Positions 11,092 to 31,373 of a stretch of DNA of 32,322 nt are shown in pieces. The DNA comes from a virus. The notes beneath the pieces are model-generated. The model searched no databases, had not been told where the DNA came from, and saw only the letters and a program-made list of their open reading frames with translations. The stretch lies in the IMG/VR virus record IMGVR_UViG_3300027770_000178, positions 1-32,322 of that record. One strand, 5' to 3'. The position numbers and the translations under genes are program-made. Numbering within the stretch: the first letter of the stretch is position 1; each line of letters opens with the position of its first letter.

Positions 11092-11357
11092 ACATTCAAG
11101 ACATCCTAAAAGCAGTACTGCCGATTGTTGTAGCGTGTTTAGCGTGGCTACTAGGTCAAGTATCCGACTTCTCTACACGGCTTACTAAGATTGAAGGGCA
11201 AATGCCAGCACTAATTACCAAAGAAAATGTACCTACTGACTCGCCTTTGTCTGCCGAGGCAAGGCATAAACTAAGAAATGAAATTTACACAGACATACAT
11301 CAGTTACAGGTTAAAGTGCAGTTACTTGAAGAACGTGAAAAATATGGGAAAAAATAA
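11088..11357 (+). CDS. Membrane-anchored coiled-coil protein, possible holin or spanin part
   Basis: This 89-residue protein has one N-terminal membrane segment (about residues 8-24, VLPIVVACLAWLLGQV). An extended helical region with FSTRLTKIEGQMPALI and a C-terminal coiled coil HQLQVKVQLLEEREK follow. The shape fits a class-II-holin-like or inner-membrane-spanin-like protein. It is coupled by ATGA to the gene before it and by TAATG to the 3TM holin after it. I cannot choose between the two roles from sequence alone. Confidence 0.65.
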   Translation: MNIQDILKAVLPIVVACLAWLLGQVSDFSTRLTKIEGQMPALITKENVPTDSPLSAEARHKLRNEIYTDIHQLQVKVQLLEEREKYGKK

Positions 11358-11755
11358 TGTTAGGACTTGACGCAATACTAAACATAGGCGGTAAGTTAAT
11401 TGATAAGCTAATACCTGACCCAGAGGCTAAAGCCAAGGCACAATTAGAGTTAGCAACATTAGCCCAAAATGGCGAGTTGGCTCAATTACAGGCGGATGTA
11501 AGCGAACAACAAGAACTTACCAAACGACTACAAGCCGACATGATGTCTGACTCTTGGTTATCTAAGAACATACGCCCTATGACCCTTGTATTCATTCTAA
11601 TGACCTATACAACCTTTGCCATGATGAGCGCATGGGATATTGAAGTTAACAATAACTACGTTGAGTTGCTTGGGCAATGGGGTATGCTCATAATGAGCTT
11701 TTACTTTGGTGGTCGTACTCTTGAGAAAATCATGGACATGAAGGGTAAGAAATGA
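11357..11755 (+). CDS. Holin of the 3TM family
   Basis: This 132-residue protein has an N-terminal amphipathic region (GGKLIDKLIPDPEAKAKAQLE broken by charges, about 11-31). Two clear hydrophobic segments sit at about 75-92 and 103-117, and the protein closes with FYFGGRTLEKI. This arrangement and the closing GGRTLEKI block are typical of the 3TM holin family (PF11351). Holins form the inner-membrane lesion that releases endolysin. Its stop overlaps the endolysin start by 4 bases (ATGA), so holin and endolysin are made together. Confidence 0.8.
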   Translation: MLGLDAILNIGGKLIDKLIPDPEAKAKAQLELATLAQNGELAQLQADVSEQQELTKRLQADMMSDSWLSKNIRPMTLVFILMTYTTFAMMSAWDIEVNNNYVELLGQWGMLIMSFYFGGRTLEKIMDMKGKK

Positions 11756-12288
11756 TTAGTAATTGGGATAAGTCGTTTGATATGGTCATTGCCCATGAGG
11801 GTGGTTTTACAAATGATGAGCGTGACCCTGGCAATAAGTTACCAGATGGTCGCAAAGGTTCTACTATGCTCGGTTGTACTCAAGCCAATTGGGAGAAGTA
11901 CATAGGCCATGAAGTTACACAAGATGATATGAAAGCGTTAAAGAAAGAAGATGTTAAACCGTTATACAAAAGAGATTATTGGGATGCCGTTCGAGGTGAT
12001 GATTTACCTGCTGGCGTGGACTACGCTGTTTTTGACTTTGCTATTAATGCTGGGCCAGCCGCTGCTCGCAAGATGATACAGAAAGCCCTCGGCGTAACTG
12101 CTGACGGCTCTATCGGCCCTGCAACCATGAAAGCAATCCAAGAGGCAGAAGGTAAAGACTTGTTAGACAAGTTCAGCAACAGCAAAGAAGCGTTTTATAA
12201 GTCGTTACCTACTTTTGAAACTTATGGCAAAGGATGGCTCAAACGTGTAGCTGACGTGCAAACATCTGCGTCAACAATGTTAGCGTGA
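11752..12288 (+). CDS. Endolysin, GH108-type N-acetylmuramidase
   Basis: This 178-residue protein begins with AHEGGFTNDERDPGN, in which Glu16 of HEGG is the expected catalytic acid of glycoside hydrolase family 108. GCTQANWEKY and VDYAVFDFAINAGPAAARKM follow as the family's other recognisable blocks. The C-terminal half (about 95-178) fits the predicted peptidoglycan-binding domain that accompanies GH108 (PG_binding_3). No signal peptide is present, so export depends on the holin. It is the last gene of the plus-strand block and its 3' end overlaps the end of a minus-strand gene by 9 bases. Confidence 0.88.
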   Translation: MISNWDKSFDMVIAHEGGFTNDERDPGNKLPDGRKGSTMLGCTQANWEKYIGHEVTQDDMKALKKEDVKPLYKRDYWDAVRGDDLPAGVDYAVFDFAINAGPAAARKMIQKALGVTADGSIGPATMKAIQEAEGKDLLDKFSNSKEAFYKSLPTFETYGKGWLKRVADVQTSASTMLA

Positions 12289-12489
12289 CTGCTGTTTAGC
12301 CATCTGACGTGCCTCAAAGCACATCTGTGCATAGCGTTGCGGTATATCAGGGTGCCAACCACCCATAATGACATCGCAGTTAACTCTAGGGCGTTCTTCT
12401 CTGCGCGTTAATTCTGTAAAAGCAATCAGGTAAGTGCAGACAATAATGCCAAACAAGCATACCAAAATAGTTATTCCATCCGTTCTCAT
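12280..12489 (-). CDS. Small single-membrane-segment protein
   Basis: This 69-residue protein has an N-terminal hydrophobic segment (about residues 6-25, ITILVCLFGIIVCTYLIAF). The remaining domain is hydrophilic, with REERPRVNCDVIMGGWHPD and RYAQMCFEAR. The ATG overlaps the previous gene's TGA (ATGA). It is the last gene of the minus-strand operon and ends inside the 3' end of the endolysin gene. The Cys residues at about 38 and 57 could form a pair outside the membrane. I do not recognise a family with confidence. Confidence 0.6.
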   Translation of the reverse strand: MRTDGITILVCLFGIIVCTYLIAFTELTRREERPRVNCDVIMGGWHPDIPQRYAQMCFEARQMAKQQSR

Positions 12490-12668
12490 ATCACGTCTCC
12501 TAGTGAGTATTTCTTTAACAAGTGGTACTTAAACTTCCGCAACGCCATACTTTCAATCTCGCTAACTCGACTACGGGAAAGCCCTAACTCATCTGCAACT
12601 TCTTGCTGGCTCATGTGGCCTTCATTGTTCTGTGGCACAGGCGCATATTCTTCGTAATCGTCGTCCAT
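12486..12668 (-). CDS. Sigma-70 region 4-like HTH protein
   Basis: This 60-residue protein has an acidic N-terminus (MDDDYEEYAP) and one helix-turn-helix at about residues 19-42 (MSQQEVADELGLSRSRVSEI). The tail ESMALRKFKYHL reads like the end of sigma-70 region 4, which contacts the -35 box. No other sigma regions are present. It may redirect or modulate the host RNA polymerase, or act as a small repressor. The start overlaps the previous stop (TAATG) and its stop overlaps the next start (ATGA), placing it deep in a coupled operon. Confidence 0.75.
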   Translation of the reverse strand: MDDDYEEYAPVPQNNEGHMSQQEVADELGLSRSRVSEIESMALRKFKYHLLKKYSLGDVI

Positions 12669-13007: not shown

Positions 13008-13198
13008 GGTGCGGTTGCCTCTCGCATTATTTCTATACGCTCACGGCTAACCCGCAAGGTGTTATATCTCATGTGCAAGCGCTCCATGATAGATGCTCGC
13101 TTGAGGCCACGTCGCTCCTCAATCAGCATAATTAATACTTCAGACTCATTGAGCTGATTCAGTACGGCTTGTAGCTTCCTCCAAGATAAAGGTTTCAT
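13004..13198 (-). CDS. Small HTH-like hypothetical protein
   Basis: This 64-residue basic protein contains SEVLIMLIEERRGLKRASIM and ERLHMRYNTLRVSRERIEIM. The spacing of helices suggests a winged or simple helix-turn-helix DNA-binding domain, in which RYNTLR would lie in the recognition part. The ATG overlaps the TGA of the HNH gene and the TGA overlaps the next GTG. A role in gene control is a guess from fold shape. Confidence 0.55.
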   Translation of the reverse strand: MKPLSWRKLQAVLNQLNESEVLIMLIEERRGLKRASIMERLHMRYNTLRVSRERIEIMREATAP

Positions 13199-13674
13199 AG
13201 GCCCCTCGCAAATTCTTTGTGGTATTTATTTCGTGCCTCAATTGCAACAAGTTCAGCTAATTCTAAATCTTCAAATTTACCTAAATATAATCGTTGATTA
13301 TCTACACCAATTCTAACTTCCCATTTTTTAGTAGTTTTGTGCCAACTAACATTTTTAATTCCTGAAGTGTTAGTTTTTGGTTTTTTTCTGTTATGTTGAT
13401 TTTGCGCGCTTGTTGCTTCACGTAAATTTTCAATTAAATTATTTAATGGGTTTCCATCAATATGATCTACTAACGGGGGTCGATAATCATTAAAAAGTAT
13501 AAAAATTAACACGTGTTCAAAATAGGCTTGTTTATTAAACCTAATCGTCCTATACCCTAAAGATGTTTTATGACCTGCTCGACGACCAATAGGCACGTTT
13601 TTAGCTGGACTTATCTTCCAATATAGTTTTCCATCGTGATAATCAAATATCTTTTGTATGCTTTGCGAGTTCAT
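13195..13674 (-). CDS. HNH homing endonuclease with AP2 DNA-binding domain
   Basis: This is a 159-residue protein starting at the ATG ending at 13674 (MNSQSIQKIF), with AAAGG 6 bases upstream. A longer TTG start at 13698 is less likely. Residues about 54-92 carry the HNH core: His54, then VDHIDGNPLNNLIENLRE and Asn92. Residues about 104-150 form an AP2-type DNA-binding domain (SGIKNVSWHKTTKKWEVRI). Such enzymes cut DNA and spread as selfish genes. It sits inside the small-gene operon, overlapping the gene before it by 32 bases and the gene after it by ATGA. The gene is visibly richer in A and T than its neighbours. Confidence 0.88.
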   Translation of the reverse strand: MNSQSIQKIFDYHDGKLYWKISPAKNVPIGRRAGHKTSLGYRTIRFNKQAYFEHVLIFILFNDYRPPLVDHIDGNPLNNLIENLREATSAQNQHNRKKPKTNTSGIKNVSWHKTTKKWEVRIGVDNQRLYLGKFEDLELAELVAIEARNKYHKEFARGL

Positions 13675-13816
13675 CTTCGACCTTTCTTTGTAATTCAATA
13701 GTTTCGTTAGTAACTTTTTTTAACGCTTTGGCAGCAGCGTTGTACTGCCTCGCCCTAATTGTTTCCTCAGCTAGCGCTGCCTTCAACTTGGCTTTGTATT
13801 GTAATAACCTTTTCAT
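13643..13816 (-). CDS. Small coiled-coil hypothetical protein
   Basis: I choose the ATG ending at 13816, which overlaps the previous TGA (ATGA) and has AGGAAG just before it; a frame extending to 13852 adds 12 residues without reason. The 57-residue product is one long charged helix with heptad-like spacing (KLKAALAEETIRARQYNAAA, then ETIELQRKVEDELAKH). It may be an oligomerising partner for another small protein in the operon. No family was recognised. Confidence 0.55.
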   Translation of the reverse strand: MKRLLQYKAKLKAALAEETIRARQYNAAAKALKKVTNETIELQRKVEDELAKHTKDI

Positions 13817-20380: not shown

Positions 20381-22693
20381 ATGTACAACTTTTTAGAGTT
20401 TATCACACAATTAGCACCCGATGGCGAGACTGCCTTGATTGTGCGCCAAAAGCCACAGTTAAAAGATGGCGCGTTGCAGTTGCACGCTGACGGCGCTATC
20501 AAATGTACATGGCCTGCGTACTTGCCTAGTCAGAAGATGCGTGCTGGTGAGGCGTGGTATATCAATACGGCGTCGTTTATCATAGACCGATTCGAGGATG
20601 GGCGCGTATCAGCGTCCGCAGTCAATTGCGAGTTTGTGTTATTTATGATGTTAGATGACATCGGCACCAAATCAAAAACACCGCCCCTTGCACCGACATG
20701 GATTCTTGAGACTAGCCCTGATAATTTTCAGTACGGCTATGCTTTCTCGGAACAACCCACCAAGGGTGAGTTCACGGCAGCGGTCAAAGCCATTGCTGCG
20801 GCAGGTTACACCGATGCAGGCGCTACAAACGCAGTCCGTAATGTGCGTCTGCCAGGCTCAATTAACCTGAAGCCTGGGCGTGATAACTTCGAAGCCAAGT
20901 TAGTTGAGTTTCACCCTGAGCGTGATTACACGCTAGGCGACATTTGCACGGCGCTAGGTGTAACACCTGCGCCTGCCGATACGAATCACTACGCGCCAAT
21001 CAGGTTAGCCGACAATGGTGGCGATGATGTGCTATCATGGCTTAATGATCAAGGCATGGTTCTTTCCAAGATCAATGGCGAAGGATGGTTATCAGTCACT
21101 TGCCCCAACAGTGCCGAGCATACCGATGGCAACCCCGAAGGTCGGTACAAACCCCTAGATCGTTCTTATTGCTGCTTACACTCGCATTGTGTCGATTTCG
21201 GCAGTCAAACATTTTTAGATTGGGTCGCCGCTAACGGTGGCCCTAAAGTTACTCACGGCCTACGTGACAAATTGATTGCTGAGGCGATGACCGTAGCGCT
21301 CGCCAAGATCACCCCGTCCGATATGTTTACCGATGACGCCGATGCTAAGATAGCCGAGGTCGAGCGCAAAGAGTTAGGCCGTGTCGAAAAGTCCAAGTGG
21401 TATGAGCGGTTCGCGTATGTGCAAGACGATGAGTCTTATTTTGATATGCAAGACCGTCGTGAGGTGTCGAGACAGACTTTTAACGCTCTGTTCCGTCACA
21501 TCAAGTGTATGTCAATCCATGCGCCTACCACGAAGGTTGAGGCATCTATCTGCTTTGACCAGAACAGACAAACAATGGGCGCTAAGGCGCTTGTGGGGAT
21601 TACATACGCTGCGGGTGAGACTGTGTTAGTCGCCCGTGACGGTGATTTATACGGCAACCGTTGGCGTGACGCTAGACCTGATGTGTCATCCGTGGTGGCC
21701 TCAGACTTGGGCGTCGCCCCGTGGCTGAATCATTGCCGTGAGCTTGTGCCTGAACCCGCCGAGTTAGAACACCTGCTTGACATCATGGCCTGCAAGGTGC
21801 AGCACCCGCAAGTTAAGATCAATCATGCCGTGTTGCATGGCGGCGATGAGGGCAGCGGTAAAGATACGATGTGGGCGCCGTTCATTTGGGCAGTCTGTGG
21901 CAGTCACCTCAAGAACCGTGGCATCATGGATAACAACTCCATTAATTCGCAATGGGGTTATCAATTAGAGTCTGAGATTCTATTGATTAACGAATTAAAA
22001 GAACCCGATGCGTCTGCCCGTAGGCAGTTGGCCAATCAATTAAAGCCCATCATAGCGGCGCCGCCTGAGATGTTGCCAATCAACCGTAAGGGTTTACACC
22101 CGTACCAGATGGCCAACCGTGTGTTTGTCCTTGCATTCTCGAATGATCCTGTGCCGATCTCGTTAGCGTCTCAGGACAGACGTTGGTTTTGCGTATGGTC
22201 AGCAGCAGCTAGGATGGATGCCAAAGTAGCTCAGGCGCTGTGGGCGTGGTATCGCAAGGGCGGGTTTGAGTCTATTGCCGCGTGGTTGCACGCCCGTGAC
22301 GTAACTAAGTTTAACCCTGCCGCAGCGCCTGCCATGACTGAGTTTAAGGCCAATTTAGTTGAGCATGGCATGAGCATGGCCGAGAGTTATTTAGTTGAGA
22401 TGCTGAAAAGTCGTACCAGCGAGTTTGCCCGTGGCGTGATTGGCTCACCATTTCATGCGCTTTGTGATCGTTTAGCAGGATTAGCGCCTAGCAACGTGAA
22501 GGTACCGCAAGCTGCTTTGTTACACGCTTTGAAGGAAGCAGGCTGGATAGATTGTGGACGCCTTGCAAGCGCAGACTTCAAGAGTAAGAAGCATATCTAT
22601 GCTGCGCCTGAAGTAGCGCACGTGTTGAGTAAGTCTGAGCTAAGGCGTGCGGTAGAGGACTTGCCGATGCCTCAGAAAGTCAATACAAAATGA
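20381..22693 (+). CDS. Primase-helicase with SF3/D5-like ATPase
   Basis: This 770-residue protein has an N-terminal primase-like part (about 1-200) with VRNVRLPGSINLK, reminiscent of archaeo-eukaryotic/RepB-type primases. A Cys/His cluster follows at 241-270 (Cys241, His247, Cys264, Cys265, His267, Cys270) that could bind zinc. The C-terminal ATPase has Walker A GGDEGSGKDT (487-496), a Walker B-like ILLINELK (533-540) in which Asn replaces the usual Asp before Glu, and sensor FVLAFSNDP (582-590). Such proteins prime and unwind DNA at the fork. The start has GGAAGG upstream. The candidate origin repeats begin at the last base of its stop codon. Confidence 0.85.
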   Translation: MYNFLEFITQLAPDGETALIVRQKPQLKDGALQLHADGAIKCTWPAYLPSQKMRAGEAWYINTASFIIDRFEDGRVSASAVNCEFVLFMMLDDIGTKSKTPPLAPTWILETSPDNFQYGYAFSEQPTKGEFTAAVKAIAAAGYTDAGATNAVRNVRLPGSINLKPGRDNFEAKLVEFHPERDYTLGDICTALGVTPAPADTNHYAPIRLADNGGDDVLSWLNDQGMVLSKINGEGWLSVTCPNSAEHTDGNPEGRYKPLDRSYCCLHSHCVDFGSQTFLDWVAANGGPKVTHGLRDKLIAEAMTVALAKITPSDMFTDDADAKIAEVERKELGRVEKSKWYERFAYVQDDESYFDMQDRREVSRQTFNALFRHIKCMSIHAPTTKVEASICFDQNRQTMGAKALVGITYAAGETVLVARDGDLYGNRWRDARPDVSSVVASDLGVAPWLNHCRELVPEPAELEHLLDIMACKVQHPQVKINHAVLHGGDEGSGKDTMWAPFIWAVCGSHLKNRGIMDNNSINSQWGYQLESEILLINELKEPDASARRQLANQLKPIIAAPPEMLPINRKGLHPYQMANRVFVLAFSNDPVPISLASQDRRWFCVWSAAARMDAKVAQALWAWYRKGGFESIAAWLHARDVTKFNPAAAPAMTEFKANLVEHGMSMAESYLVEMLKSRTSEFARGVIGSPFHALCDRLAGLAPSNVKVPQAALLHALKEAGWIDCGRLASADFKSKKHIYAAPEVAHVLSKSELRRAVEDLPMPQKVNTK

Positions 22694-22758
22694 ATCGAAA
22701 ATAGCGTCTTTAAAACTAATCGAAAATAGCGTCCCGATACCTAATCGAAAAAAGCGTC
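22693..22758 (+). repeat. Three iterons at exact 25-bp spacing
   Basis: The 16-base unit AATCGAAAATAGCGTC occurs at 22693-22708 and 22718-22733 and, with one change (AATCGAAAAAAGCGTC), at 22743-22758. Starts are exactly 25 bases apart, and the spacer bases differ between copies. The spaced direct repeats are typical of binding sites for a replication initiator. They follow the primase-helicase gene directly. Confidence 0.8.
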
Positions 22759-22789
22759 CCCATAAAAATATAGAAATGTGTATAGCCCA

Positions 22790-22808
22790 CGCCCGTCACC
22801 CACGGGCG
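22790..22808. other. GC hairpin next to the iterons
   Basis: A perfect 7-bp stem CGCCCGT/ACGGGCG encloses the loop CACCC. Neither strand has a T-run after it, so termination is not indicated. It separates the iterons from the A-tract block and could be part of the same element. Confidence 0.5.
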
Positions 22809-22815
22809 CAAGCGT

Positions 22816-22876
22816 AAAAAAAAGCAAAAAAAAGTCAAAAAAAGTCAAAAAATCCAAAAAAATAAGGCCAAAAAAA
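22816..22876 (+). repeat. Phased A-tracts (predicted bent DNA)
   Basis: Six runs of 5-8 A residues begin at 22816, 22826, 22837, 22847, 22856 and 22870. The first five have centres about 10 bases apart, close to the helical repeat, so their bends should add up. Phased A-tracts are common at replication origins and strong control sites. The lack of G/C would also ease melting. Confidence 0.7.
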
Positions 22877-22892
22877 CCCGCTTTTAACGGGC
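22870..22892 (-). terminator. Leftward terminator, second of a pair
   Basis: On the minus strand CCCGTTAAAAGCGGG can form a 4-bp GC stem extended by a G-U and an A-T pair, followed by seven T residues. The stem is weaker than that of the terminator at 22933-22957 and may act as backup. Confidence 0.5.
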
Positions 22893-22894
22893 GA

Positions 22895-22928
22895 GCGGCG
22901 CCAGCTGGTCGCAGATCCGCGGCGCCAG
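22895..22928. repeat. GCGGCGCCAG direct repeat and palindromes
   Basis: GCGGCGCCAG occurs at 22895-22904 and 22919-22928, starts 24 bases apart. The first copy runs into the 8-base palindrome CCAGCTGG, and each copy contains the palindrome GGCGCC. The block lies between the two leftward terminators. A protein-binding site is possible. Confidence 0.45.
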
Positions 22929-22932
22929 GCGT

Positions 22933-22957
22933 AAAAAAAAGCCCGCTGTAGGCGGGC
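22933..22957 (-). terminator. Strong leftward rho-independent terminator
   Basis: On the minus strand a perfect 6-bp stem GCCCGC/GCGGGC with the loop CTACA is followed by eight T residues. It lies 23 bases beyond the last micro-ORF of the leftward operon, marking its end and supporting transcription of that operon through 22980. Confidence 0.8.
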
Positions 22958-22979
22958 CATGGTTTATAAGATTGCTGGT

Positions 22980-23042
22980 TTAAAGATCGAATACAGCAAC
23001 TATTAATAAGACTATAGATCCTGCGATGATAGCGATTAGCAT
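22980..23042 (-). CDS. 20-residue membrane micropeptide
   Basis: The ATG (23042-23040) overlaps the previous gene's TAA by one base and the frame ends at TAA 22982-22980, shortly before a terminator. The product MLIAIIAGSIVLLIVAVFDL is essentially one membrane segment. Such peptides often regulate a membrane protein or form small assemblies. Evidence for translation is the TAATG overlap and the clean hydrophobic pattern only. Confidence 0.4.
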   Translation of the reverse strand: MLIAIIAGSIVLLIVAVFDL

Positions 23043-23257
23043 TAGTGATATAACCCCATTAATAGCAGCTCCTCGCCGCCGTACACTTTAGCAGCGCCGC
23101 AGCAAGCGCAGCTATACCTACGCGCGTCTGGCTCTACTGTATCTGACTCAGCGCCGCACGCCAGGCAAAATCCCGCCATGCTATCAATAGCCGCCATTAA
23201 TTGTTTTTCACTAGGTTTATATTGTGTTTTACCGTTTTTTGTTTTATATGTTTTCAT
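23042..23257 (-). CDS. Small Cys-rich protein, likely zinc-binding
   Basis: This 71-residue protein has a lysine-rich start and two Cys pairs, FCLACGAES and SCACCGAAKVY, about 19 residues apart, the usual layout of a zinc ribbon. The tail is GGEELLLMGLYH. The ATG overlaps the stop of the 36-residue upstream frame (ATGA). A nucleic-acid or protein-binding role is possible. Confidence 0.7.
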   Translation of the reverse strand: MKTYKTKNGKTQYKPSEKQLMAAIDSMAGFCLACGAESDTVEPDARRYSCACCGAAKVYGGEELLLMGLYH

Positions 23258-23364
23258 GTTGAAATTTTCCCGTTATATTTGCGAGCAAATAGCTGCGCGC
23301 TTGTTTTATCGTTAAATCTTATTGAGTAATCCTCGCCCTGGATGCGATACCGTACGATATACAT
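23254..23364 (-). CDS. 36-residue basic hypothetical protein
   Basis: I read this frame by hand: ATG (23364-23362) overlaps the previous TAA and TGA overlaps the next ATG. The product begins MYIVRYRIQGEDYSIRFNDK and ends NGKIST. The alternating pattern suggests a small beta-hairpin followed by a helix, similar to arm-type DNA-binding domains of integrases, but it is too short to claim this. Double coupling supports coding. Confidence 0.5.
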   Translation of the reverse strand: MYIVRYRIQGEDYSIRFNDKTSAQLFARKYNGKIST

Positions 23365-23462
23365 TAAAAGCCCCCCGTACGATAAATATAAATAAGCGCA
23401 AGGCCTAAGCCCATGGCGGCCGCAAATAGGCCGCCTAGTAAGTAATCAATAAATGTTTTCAT
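23364..23462 (-). CDS. 32-residue membrane micropeptide
   Basis: The ATG ends at 23462 and has AAGGA seven bases upstream, so it has its own ribosome site. The product has one hydrophobic segment (YLLGGLFAAAMGLGLALIYI) and a short basic end YRTGGF. Its stop overlaps the next start (TAATG). Membrane insertion is predicted. The function is unknown. Confidence 0.55.
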   Translation of the reverse strand: MKTFIDYLLGGLFAAAMGLGLALIYIYRTGGF

Positions 23463-23469
23463 GTTTTCC

Positions 23470-23541
23470 TTAATTAATGTATTGGCTTAAAGTAAGCCCT
23501 ATTATTACGCCATATAAAACGTGCAATATAAACGTAAGCAT
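23470..23541 (-). CDS. 23-residue membrane micropeptide
   Basis: The frame starts at the ATG just after the stop of the DUF7227-like gene (TAATATG) and ends at TAA 23472-23470. The product is MLTFILHVLYGVIIGLTLSQ plus three residues, a single hydrophobic segment. No separate ribosome site is seen, so reinitiation after the upstream stop is assumed. This is less certain than the next micropeptide. Confidence 0.4.
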   Translation of the reverse strand: MLTFILHVLYGVIIGLTLSQYIN

Positions 23542-23542
23542 A

Positions 23543-24241
23543 TTACGCCGCCTTTAGATAAAAGATCTTACTAGCGGCTTTTTTGGCGCTGCCATGGGCC
23601 TTAAAACCTATAATCACAGCGCGGGCCACGTTAGCGCATAATTTACAAGTGCTGCAGCTTACATTGTCGCGTGTTTGAGCGGGGCATACAATGACAGTAT
23701 TGCCGCCAGGCGTTACGCTTTTATCCTGGTAATCTTCGGGTAACAAGGTTACGACGGGGCCAATATTCAATTTGATTAGTTTATCCGCTTGCGCTAGATT
23801 ATCCGCGCTCAAATTGATCGTAAACCCGCTTTTATTAGCTAATTTTACCAGGGCTTTATTTACTAACGCGATTGGATCGCGGCCTAATACTGGCTTATGA
23901 GTGTAAGTAAATCCGTTAGCAGCTGCCGCCTGGTTAGCTTTTACTAGGGCGCCTAATTTGCTTTTATCGATCTTATTACCCGCGCCTGGTAAATCGCCCG
24001 CCTGGTTATGACGCCATAGTTGGCCTATCTCGAATTGTTTGATCTGGTTTAAAAATTCATTCCAGGCGCCGCCGCGCTGTTTAGTACTAACCTTATTCCA
24101 ATGTAAAGCAAGCGGCCCGCTTTTAGCATAGCAGCTAGTTTTATGCGGGCAGCCAGGCGGGCAGCTTTTTTGTTCTGTAGTGCTAACGGGGATCGGCCCC
24201 GTTTTCACGTTAGCGCTTTTTAATGTCAAATGTACTTGCAT
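23543..24241 (-). CDS. Cys-rich GP88/DUF7227-like phage protein
   Basis: This 232-residue protein has an N-terminal Cys cluster (SCPPGCPHKTSCYAKSGPLA, about 26-45), GQLWRHNQAGDLPG in the middle and a C-terminal Cys cluster (CPAQTRDNVSCSTCKLCA). I associate this layout with phage and plasmid proteins annotated as GP88 or DUF7227, and the assignment is from memory. The clusters suggest a metal or iron-sulfur site. It starts after the shared leader ACTAAAGTAAAGGAAAA. The reaction is unknown. Confidence 0.7.
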   Translation of the reverse strand: MQVHLTLKSANVKTGPIPVSTTEQKSCPPGCPHKTSCYAKSGPLALHWNKVSTKQRGGAWNEFLNQIKQFEIGQLWRHNQAGDLPGAGNKIDKSKLGALVKANQAAAANGFTYTHKPVLGRDPIALVNKALVKLANKSGFTINLSADNLAQADKLIKLNIGPVVTLLPEDYQDKSVTPGGNTVIVCPAQTRDNVSCSTCKLCANVARAVIIGFKAHGSAKKAASKIFYLKAA

Positions 24242-24292
24242 TGTGTTTTCCTTTACTTTAGTTTAGTTTATTGATCGTTAAAATAACAATCC

Positions 24293-24320
24293 AATAAGCG
24301 CCAGGGCGGCGGCGCTTATT
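24293..24320. other. Strong hairpin between leftward genes
   Basis: Two perfect 10-base arms, AATAAGCGCC and GGCGCTTATT, enclose an 8-base GC-rich loop. It lies after the 55-residue gene and before the GP88-like gene. No T-run follows on either strand, so it may be an attenuator, RNA-processing site or stability element. Confidence 0.6.
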
Positions 24321-24326
24321 AGCTTA

Positions 24327-24494
24327 TTACTTAGGTAATATATTGTTAATTTTTTTACCGTTAAACATTTGATTAGACCAGGCGTTAAAAATAGCTATTT
24401 TCACGGTTTCCCGTTTATCCTCTGGTAGATCCGCTAACGAATTTTCTAAGTACTTAAGAACATCATTAATCATTTTTTCTGGCGTGATAATCAT
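24327..24494 (-). CDS. 55-residue hypothetical protein
   Basis: I read this frame by hand. The ATG ends at 24494 with AAAGGAAG eight bases upstream and the stop is TAA 24329-24327. The product includes TPEKMINDVLKYLENSLADL and KRETVKIAIFNAWSNQMF, looks helical and acidic, and ends ILPK. The preceding gene also ends with an ILPNK segment. No family was recognised. Confidence 0.65.
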   Translation of the reverse strand: MIITPEKMINDVLKYLENSLADLPEDKRETVKIAIFNAWSNQMFNGKKINNILPK

Positions 24495-24497
24495 TTT

Positions 24498-24806
24498 TTA
24501 GCTTCCTTTATTAGGTAATATGCAGCCAGGGAAAGCGCGTGCATGATCTTCTAATTGTTTAATAAATTCACGCTCTAATTGGAAATTATTGTCAAATGCT
24601 GCGCCAGAGTAAGTATGCGAGGCGGGATCATCATAAGCCGCCATGATTGAATTACGATCTAAGGCCGCAGCTGGTAACGCGTAATCTATCCCACGATCAA
24701 TATCAACCATGATAACGACGCCATTGTGTACCGCAGCTGCGATCCGTTGTCCTTTTTCGGAATAATGGCGGCCTGTATTAAAACTGATTATTTTATCGAT
24801 TTGCAT
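24498..24806 (-). CDS. Hypothetical protein
   Basis: This 102-residue protein starts at ATG after AAAGGAAAACAAA. It has IISFNTGRHYSEKGQRIAAA and VVIMVDIDRGIDYALP (beta-rich half), followed by a helical end (FQLEREFIKQLEDHARAF). The phrase FNTGRHYSEKGQRI looks like a conserved phage motif, but I cannot name its family. It is the second gene of the leftward operon. Confidence 0.65.
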   Translation of the reverse strand: MQIDKIISFNTGRHYSEKGQRIAAAVHNGVVIMVDIDRGIDYALPAAALDRNSIMAAYDDPASHTYSGAAFDNNFQLEREFIKQLEDHARAFPGCILPNKGS

Positions 24807-24830
24807 TTTGTTTTCCTTTAGTTTAGTTAA

Positions 24831-24998
24831 TTACCACGAAATAAAATCATCTTGCAATCTTTCGAATATTTCTAGCGCTTGCTCAATTGCAGCTTGCTCT
24901 GAAATATCCTTTTCAAGATATGGCGAGTAGTCAACGGGCGTGATTTTATACCCGTTATCTTTAGATAAATATCTTGCTTGCGTTATGTATTGTTGCAT
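24831..24998 (-). CDS. 55-residue hypothetical protein, first gene of leftward operon
   Basis: I read this frame by hand. The ATG ends at 24998 with AAAGG upstream and the stop is TAA 24833-24831. The product begins MQQYITQARYLSKDNGYKIT and continues with ISEQAAIEQALEIFERLQDD, acidic and helical. It follows a candidate promoter at 25044-25072. No family was recognised. Confidence 0.65.
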   Translation of the reverse strand: MQQYITQARYLSKDNGYKITPVDYSPYLEKDISEQAAIEQALEIFERLQDDFISW

Positions 24999-25043
24999 TT
25001 TGTTTGCCTTTCTTTCTATTTGTTTGTTGCGTACTGCTATTAG

Positions 25044-25072
25044 AGGGTATCATGCTTTTTTAACTATTGCAA
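25044..25072 (-). promoter_or_regulatory. Candidate leftward promoter
   Basis: On the minus strand TTGCAA (25067-25072) and TACCCT (25044-25049) are separated by 17 bases, close to sigma-70 spacing. Several AT-rich alternatives overlap it, including TTGACA at 25110-25115. It lies 46 bases before the first gene of the leftward operon. Confidence 0.4.
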
Positions 25073-25192
25073 CGTATTTTGTTACAAATACAACAAAATA
25101 GTAAAAAATTGTCAAAATATTGTCTTGAATTGTCAAATGACAATGGCCAAATGACAATTGATAGCGCCAATTGGCATAATGCGCGGGAAGAT

Positions 25193-25386
25193 TTATAGGT
25201 CAAATTGTCATTTTATTAGATATATTTAAGTACATTAAAATTAATAAATATAGGCTGCTATGGCGTCAATTTAAAATGGCCGACAATATGACGTATTTGA
25301 CCTATAATCCCCGCGCCCTATGCCGGCGCCAAAAATCCCTAAACTAATTTATATGTCATATTGTCATTTGACAATTTGACTTATAA
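25193..25386. repeat. TTTGACYTATAA motif, three copies
   Basis: TTTGACCTATAA occurs on the plus strand at 25296-25307 and TTTGACTTATAA at 25375-25386. On the minus strand TTTGACCTATAA occurs at 25193-25204. The first and third form a perfect 13-base inverted repeat (25193-25205 with 25295-25307) around 89 bases. The motif joins a TGAC half-box to a TATAA-like segment. Confidence 0.6.
25280..25308 (+). promoter_or_regulatory. Candidate rightward promoter with perfect TATAAT
   Basis: CCGACA (25280-25285) and a perfect TATAAT (25303-25308) are exactly 17 bases apart. The -10 box overlaps a TTTGACCTATAA copy, so binding of a regulator to that motif could block it. No gene starts close by; the next plus-strand start is at 25689. 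Confidence 0.4.
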
Positions 25387-25601
25387 GATTACAGCTAACA
25401 GCTAAAAGCTGGGAGCCATGGCGCTAACTATTTTGGCGTGACAATTTGACAATGTGACAATGACCGCGCCCTGGTCGCATGATCGCGCGCCGCCATGCCA
25501 CGCCTCGCGCTTGCTACCCGCATAAATGTTAGTTAGGGCTTACACTTATGCAAGTTAGTGCCTGCTAACCATAGGGCATTTAATTTTTGCATGGGGGGGG
25601 G

Positions 25602-25624
25602 TAGGGCCGAGCCGAACGGCCCTA
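25602..25624. other. Hairpin before terminase genes, next to G9 run
   Basis: Two perfect 8-base arms, TAGGGCCG and CGGCCCTA, enclose seven bases. A run of nine G residues (25593-25601) lies immediately before it. A site recognised by terminase, or an RNA control element of the terminase leader, are both possible. Confidence 0.5.
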
Positions 25625-25638
25625 TGGCGGCGGAGCGT

Positions 25639-25666
25639 TTGCTCAAACTTTTTATTTTTTTATAAA
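25639..25666 (+). promoter_or_regulatory. Candidate promoter for the terminase-portal operon
   Basis: TTGCTC (25639-25644) and TATAAA (25661-25666) are 16 bases apart, followed by A-rich sequence. The start of the small terminase gene lies 22 bases beyond the -10 box and lacks a Shine-Dalgarno, so the leader would be very short. Confidence 0.45.
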
Positions 25667-25688
25667 AAAACTATGCTAATATTCCACC

Positions 25689-26162
25689 ATGTTTGATAAC
25701 TTTCATTCCTATGTGTATGAGCCACGCAAGCTAGAAGCTACCGAGGCTAGATTGCAACGCATCTACGACGCTGCCAAGTTAGGACTCAAAGGCGACACAT
25801 TAGCACTCGCTGCTGGGATGCGCCCTACCGAATACCGACAGCTCACGCAACTAGATCCCATTGCTGAATACGCTGAACAAAAAGGCAAAGCCGATGGCGA
25901 GATGGCGTTATCAGCGATACTGCACAAAGCCGCAGCTGATGGCGACGCTAAAGCTGCGCTAGAAATCCTCAAGCATCAGCATGGCTGGGTAGCTAAACAA
26001 CAACTGTCGATAGATGTTGATCAACGCATCTCGATCACAGCCGCACTCGAACAAGCGCAACACCGCGTAATTGAAGGCGTGTTCAAACAAGTGGATGATC
26101 AAACTAACGATGCCGAAATGCTCCACGTGAAACCACCTGAACGCAAACAAAAAGTCGCATAA
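25689..26162 (+). CDS. Terminase small subunit (candidate)
   Basis: This 157-residue helical protein has a possible helix-turn-helix at about residues 36-53 (TLALAAGMRPTEYRQLTQ) for DNA recognition. A central helical segment with ILHKAAADGDAKAALEILKH follows, and the C-terminus is charged. It lies directly before the large terminase and ends one base before its ATG. Small terminases bind the packaging site and load the large subunit. Family membership rests on size, HTH and position. There is no ribosome site before the ATG, but no better start exists. Confidence 0.75.
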   Translation: MFDNFHSYVYEPRKLEATEARLQRIYDAAKLGLKGDTLALAAGMRPTEYRQLTQLDPIAEYAEQKGKADGEMALSAILHKAAADGDAKAALEILKHQHGWVAKQQLSIDVDQRISITAALEQAQHRVIEGVFKQVDDQTNDAEMLHVKPPERKQKVA

Positions 26163-30909: not shown

Positions 30910-31212
30910 ATGGAACTTTTAAGACCTTTAGCCGATGCCAATTATCCTGCTGCTACTGTTTCCTACACAGGTACGGCAGGCGTTACGTCTACTTGGGGCG
31001 CAGGCCCACAAGGTGTAGTTGTATGGTCAACTACACCAGCTTATATTTTAGTAGGTGAAGGCGTTACAGCTACTACAGCTAGCACACCAATCCCCGCTTT
31101 TACTCCAATCCCGTTTACAGTACCACCAGGCACAGGCGCCCCTTGGCGTGTAAGTGCAATTCGTGTTACTGATAGCGGCGATGTGTACTGCAAACCAATT
31201 AATATTCGATGA
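30910..31212 (+). CDS. Small beta-rich virion-region protein
   Basis: This 100-residue Thr/Pro/Val-rich protein has VSYTGTAGVTSTWGAGPQGV and a Pro-rich middle, ending CKPINIR. Its start has AAGGA nine or so bases before the ATG. The composition resembles the small surface proteins near the coat gene, but no clear similarity was seen. It is coupled by ATGA to the next frame. Confidence 0.6.
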   Translation: MELLRPLADANYPAATVSYTGTAGVTSTWGAGPQGVVVWSTTPAYILVGEGVTATTASTPIPAFTPIPFTVPPGTGAPWRVSAIRVTDSGDVYCKPINIR

Positions 31213-31373
31213 GTTGGGGAGTTGCCCTTCGTAATAGCGTAGCCATTGGCTTAGGCGGTGTTATATCTTTATTTTCAGGCACGCGTGATAGTGGAGCATC
31301 CGTATCAAACCTTTTAACCGAAGCCAGTAATAATCTTGTGCAAGAGGATAACGGCTTGATTCTTTTGGAGTAA
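31209..31373 (+). CDS. 54-residue hypothetical protein
   Basis: I read this frame by hand. The ATG overlaps the previous TGA. The product starts MSWGVALRNSVAIGLGGVIS and ends DNGLILLE. A short hydrophobic segment covers about residues 9-22. The ends are ones I associate with a small protein often found near tail genes in related phages. It is followed 3 bases later by the tailspike-like gene. The function is unknown. Confidence 0.65.
   Translation: MSWGVALRNSVAIGLGGVISLFSGTRDSGASVSNLLTEASNNLVQEDNGLILLE

Follow-up and report, generated by a model that had tools for sequence, protein, structure and literature searches.

Predicted single-span membrane microproteins m32 and m20 as the conserved core of a variable phage operon

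Our analysis covered a window of 32,322 nt, that is, the whole stretch of DNA at positions 1 to 32,322 of the IMG/VR virus record IMGVR_UViG_3300027770_000178, and concerns a leftward operon that ends in a chain of five very small reading frames (Table 1). The protein encoded just upstream of this chain matches PF23872 over residues 1-227 of 232, with 291.7 bits against a gathering cut-off of 27, and its gene contacts m23 through the sequence TAATATG. The m32 frame follows m23 after a 7-nt gap and is led by its own Shine-Dalgarno sequence (AAGGA), while each of the remaining starts overlaps the stop of the preceding frame, in the form TAATG at m32/b36, ATGA at b36/z71, and TAATG at z71/m20. 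The terminator-like hairpin starts approximately 22 nt past the m20 stop codon, and beyond it lies a convergent gene of the primase/helicase type (20381-22693; PHROG DNA primase). The initial annotation had described the five frames, the way in which they adjoin, and the terminator; the sequence, the ORF list, and a hairpin scan placed all of them where it had put them, and the membrane character that it had assigned to m23, m32, and m20 was borne out by hydropathy. Upstream of the DUF7227 gene lie three small ORFs (24327-24998), one of which (24327..24494) had no family match in Pfam/PHROG-type library searches, and beyond them lies a divergent intergenic region.

Table 1. Features of the leftward operon and its flanks (positions in the window)
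Feature	Position	Strand	Basis
Intrinsic terminator-like hairpin, 7-bp GC-rich stem and T8 run, operon end	22940..22958	-	Scan and sequence
m20, 20-aa membrane peptide MLIAIIAGSIVLLIVAVFDL, last cistron	22980..23042	-	Conservation, pN/pS, small-residue helical face
z71, 71-aa Cys-rich cargo protein, probably zinc-binding	23042..23257	-	Homologues, pN/pS, AF2
b36, 36-aa soluble protein, predicted beta-beta-alpha-beta fold	23254..23364	-	HMM, pN/pS, AF2
m32, 32-aa bitopic membrane peptide, Gly/Ala packing face, RTGGF end	23364..23462	-	Conservation, pN/pS
m23, 23-aa membrane peptide adjoining DUF7227, local cargo	23470..23541	-	Locus counts, pN/pS
DUF7227 protein, 232 aa, operon accessory gene	23543..24241	-	PF23872, E 4.5e-87
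13-bp hairpin and weak T-rich stretch in the gap between 55-aa ORF and DUF7227, possible internal attenuator	24291..24322	-	Scan
55-aa ORF, upstream cargo, same operon	24327..24494	-	ORF list
102-aa ORF, upstream cargo, same operon	24498..24806	-	ORF list, locus comparison
55-aa ORF, first gene of the operon	24831..24998	-	ORF list, locus comparison
Divergent intergenic region, promoter-like sites and TTGTCA/TGACAA box array	24999..25688	.	Scan

The divergent region contains 10 of the 23 TTGTCA/TGACAA boxes of the window, together with a number of long, imperfect inverted repeats, of which ATTGTCATTTGACAATT and its complement are an example, and looks like an operator or an origin-type repeat array. 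Elsewhere, the negative strand encodes a 60-aa protein that consists of little more than a sigma-70 region 4/HTH domain (12486-12668; PF04545, E 2.5e-8), possibly a transcription regulator, and an HNH and AP2-domain protein of the homing-endonuclease type (13195-13698).

Relatives of the locus were collected from IMG/VR by three scans anchored on the convergent primase gene, which was chosen for its length and good conservation, together with DUF7227 and z71 scans. This yielded 245 loci with the primase gene, which were reduced to 176 distinct downstream regions (differing in the last 250 bases); near-relatives remain among these 176, and the counts given below are therefore not independent observations. 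Two subsets were used in addition, namely 79 close loci and 150 loci whose downstream region spans 3 kb or more. A host call from the only two genome-collection matches was discarded as unreliable, the matching contigs lying in an actinobacterium and a proteobacterium metagenome bin.

The coding status of the five micro-ORFs was assessed by Nei-Gojobori counts over disjoint closest pairs. The pN/pS ratio was 0.26 for m20 (F8 group), 0.17 for m32, 0.18 for b36, 0.12 for m23, and 0.28 for z71, with Fisher p values far below 0.01 for all five; over all loci, m20 gave 0.20. When the frame was shifted by one or two bases, m20 had ratios of 0.68 and 3.4, and the other four frames ranged over 0.96-4.0. 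Codons 8 to the end of m20, which lie beyond the overlap with the upstream gene, still showed a ratio of 0.22. Furthermore, the final Leu of m20 is spread over all six codons (CTC 33, CTA 29, CTT 25, TTA 23, CTG 22, and TTG 20), so that it is the peptide residue that is kept and not an RNA signal. Frame conservation in relatives and selection on each ORF had been named in advance among the checks on the initial annotation, and low ratios were found in the proposed frame alone. Collectively, these substitution patterns argue that all five frames are real genes under purifying selection at the protein level.

The most constant of these genes is also the shortest. In 154 of the 176 loci, the operon closes with an m20 equivalent, i.e., a hydrophobic ORF of 18-20 codons, which has a length of 20 aa in 115, 19 aa in 35, and 18 aa in 4 of them. 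Its penultimate residue is D in 133 loci, K in 12, E and R in 4 each, and N in 1, while the last residue is L in 152 and I in 2. A scan of the last 900 nt that made no use of this ending recovered a hydrophobic 16-26-aa ORF in 154 loci, 149 of which ended with D/K/E/R/N followed by Leu. On the opposite strand such an ORF occurred in 11/176 loci, none with the charged-Leu end, and further upstream in 9/163, one of them with it; within the whole window, both strands included, the m20 frame is the sole hydrophobic, coupled, charged-Leu-ended ORF. This C-terminus (hydrophobic-Asp-Leu) might be read as a PDZ ligand, but we abandoned the idea given that the penultimate residue can also be Lys or Arg.

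In 148 of the 154 loci, the m20 start overlaps or abuts the stop of the upstream gene, most commonly by 4, 7, or 16 nt. The genes that precede m20 represent 23 sequence families, of which 11 have two or more members, and the coupling is thus kept as the partner gene changes. When the peptides were aligned at the C-terminus, their small residues clustered at positions -6, -9/-10, -13/-14, and -17, with a small-residue helical moment of 1.38 as opposed to a mean of 0.22 and a maximum of 0.79 in 5000 shuffles. With small residues gathered on one face of the helix, the mechanism most readily inferred is packing against other helices within the inner membrane.

The second persistent gene is m32, found in 72 of the 79 close loci and the most widespread operon family there. 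Profile comparison linked its close family (MKTFIDYLLGG...LALIYIYRTGGF) to a Gly-rich branch (WDILGACIMGAILGAFLAFGLLGGF) with 97.8% probability and to further branches, e.g., MKHTIYDILAAVAIGLLLTVGALAYFDILWS and ...FLAALIFAALIGAPFVLYFWSMTP, with 40-84% probability; membership of these further branches in the superfamily is no more than suggestive, since a shared hydrophobic composition can by itself make profiles match. When every branch was included, the superfamily was detected in 122 of the 150 loci that extend 3 kb or more downstream, a count that is partly circular because the profile contains members from the counted loci. A profile-free scan found an additional short membrane ORF that carries a Shine-Dalgarno-like site in 126 of 138 m20-bearing loci, compared with 22/138 on the opposite strand. 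Among the 150 loci, 120 carried both m20 and m32, 2 carried m32 alone, 18 carried m20 alone, and 10 carried neither (Fisher p 6e-7, uncorrected for kinship and confounded by shared descent). Profile-profile comparison of m20 as a possible branch of the m32 family gave no significant match (probability at most 28%).

The remaining genes are distributed more patchily. After m32, b36 is the most frequent in the close loci (54/79), and an HMM detected it in 51 of the 176. Its AF2 model is a confident beta-beta-alpha-beta fold (pLDDT 94.7), and a fold search against solved structures returned nothing significant, the matches to NosL (E 3.3), T7 Gp2 (E 5.8), and YkzG (E 2.5) being at noise level. 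Six loci (L057, L060, L073, L077, L080, and L092) encode near or directly upstream of m20 a short protein of the pattern MxYxVYxxxNxLLxxxxSPxxAxxxALxYQHxxGxPAxV, which, as judged by eye, could share the beta-beta-alpha-beta layout of b36. DUF7227 occurs in 16 of the 79 close loci. In contrast to the core genes, m23 was present in 10 and z71 in 7 of the 176 loci. The latter separates b36 from m20 in a few genomes; in most relatives this junction lacks it, and in L003/L023 it lies upstream of DUF7227. The description of z71 as zinc-ribbon-like is plausible in that C31, C34, C50, and C53, forming two CxxC knuckles, are invariant in the 7 homologues; the AF2 model (pLDDT 83) gave fold matches of E 0.35 or worse, among them zinc-ribbon ribosomal and polymerase subunits, and none was significant. 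The proposal that three membrane peptides around a Cys-rich protein form one module did not withstand the locus counts: as z71 and m23 are rare and z71 is relocated, the presumed module is a local mix of core and cargo. Taken together, the locus comparison indicates that the m32 and m20 pair is the conserved core, with b36 belonging to it in part, whereas the surrounding genes come and go.

Gene callers commonly stop at 90 nt (a 30-codon minimum), and m20 and m23 would therefore stay hidden from them. For m32, m20, and m23, we found no convincing Pfam or PHROG family and none of the known exclusion families. Profiles of m32, m20, and b36 gave nothing significant against the annotated phages OR003940, MW202483, and P26218, an m32-type query and z71 had no match among phage records, all of which were searched with the former, and no convincing match to DUF7227, z71, or b36 was found among solved structures. 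In the named relative MW202483 (L102), a 30-aa membrane ORF that lacks an annotation lies at 31209-31301, in the operon facing the primase gene; it is coupled to the gene before it and by eye resembles the m32-type peptides.

We propose that the leftward operon combines variable cargo with two core membrane microproteins. Sequence and hydropathy suggest that m20, which is almost uncharged except for its penultimate residue, and m32 would each insert as one helix in the inner membrane, where each would present a small-residue (Gly/Ala) face for packing against a partner helix. The candidate partners are a helix of its own kind, the other peptide, or a larger membrane protein, and translational coupling would tie the output of m20 to the last cargo gene of the operon. 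We rank first, although at somewhat less than an even chance, the reading that m32 and m20 associate with a complex of the host inner membrane in the course of infection and alter it. It is also conceivable, if doubtful, that the two peptides make up a two-part membrane device that has a core role in a large lineage of uncultured phages, with m20 permanently placed as the last gene and coupled to whichever cargo lies upstream.

Modulation of a host complex, a form of the host take-over that the initial annotation had suggested alongside superinfection exclusion, is placed ahead of exclusion, which we consider rather unlikely. According to the latter, m32 and m20 would block, from the inner membrane, the conduit through which the ejection proteins of incoming related virions deliver DNA, as the inner-membrane protein SieA blocks the P22 conduit (PMC10883804). 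This precedent and the P22-type ejection proteins encoded by the present phage (phrog_598 'DNA ejection' and phrog_2534), next to a P22-type portal and head-closure protein, make exclusion a serious rival, and the near-universal presence of m20 and m32 would suit a conduit shared among relatives. However, within the P22-like virion cluster genes 16 and 20 show some of the greatest variability (PMC10883804), whereas m20 is uniform in build, and neither Pfam nor PHROG searches returned a match to any exclusion family. The two peptides could instead set the timing of lysis by regulating the holin as antiholin-like helices, and the genome does carry holin and endolysin genes (11357-12288). Small membrane helices are able to disturb holin pores. 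Nevertheless, a long distance separates m20 and m32 from the lysis cassette, which belongs to a different operon on the other strand, and a primary lysis role is not needed given the dedicated holin and GH108 endolysin of the genome; we regard this explanation as improbable.

Slightly less probable still is the action of m20 as a host-membrane toxin that depolarises the membrane in the manner of the type I toxin IbsC, a 19-aa peptide that it matches in size and hydrophobicity (PMC8309996). Type I toxicity of this kind requires little of the sequence, as a frame-shifted IbsC is reported to stay toxic (PMC7192591), whereas m20 is conserved, has a fixed charged-Leu end and a packing face, and is coupled into a long operon. 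Moreover, an Rfam search of positions 22600-25720 gave no antisense RNA match, although some promoter-like sites on the positive strand leave room for an antisense RNA of an undescribed type. Finally, the position of m20 shortly before the convergent gene and its nearly constant coupling would fit a translated spacer, the reading of which holds ribosomes near the terminator while the peptide itself has no function. This explanation is nearly refuted by the low ratio that persists beyond the overlap, and residue-level conservation with free synonymous change, along with the helical periodicity, also argues against it.

If our interpretation is correct, two genes that rank with the most persistent in an accessory phage operon encode peptides of approximately 20 and 32 residues that escape annotation, which would provide a clean and testable case of conserved phage micropeptides. 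It would further imply that coupling at the end of an operon can hold a gene in place despite the swapping of its neighbours, and it would offer minimal transmembrane helices for studying how a partner is recognised by so short a sequence.

Among cellular proteins, the preferred reading of host-complex modulation has its best functional analogy in CydX (PMC4325964) and AcrZ (PMC7267776), which are single-span microproteins acting on membrane complexes. CydX, AcrZ, MgtR, and KdpF (PMC4325964, PMC7267776, PMC6813294) share with the peptides described here a hydrophobic single helix, a length below 50 aa, and, on our proposal, a larger membrane protein or complex as the target; CydX resembles them further in being encoded downstream of its partner genes. 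They differ in that their partners are known, in that the neighbour of m20 changes, and in that no sequence relation to m20 or m32 was found; CydX is also longer (37 aa compared with 18-20 aa for m20). The toxins IbsC and ShoB (26 aa) resemble m20 in size and hydrophobicity, but m20 is distinguished by coupled translation, a fixed charged-Leu end, conservation within a phage lineage, and the lack of a known antisense RNA. P22 SieA is likewise an inner-membrane phage protein, and the present phage also has a P22-type DNA-entry apparatus, yet SieA works from within a prophage, and no relationship to m20 or m32 was found at the sequence level. Very short phage genes have also been predicted from metagenomes by Fremin et al. 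2022 (cited in PMC11323111), and the m20 and m32 families may figure in that survey. Phage micropeptides are known as a kind, and a peptide of 18-20 residues as the most constant gene of an operon with swapped genes is an unusual variant of it.
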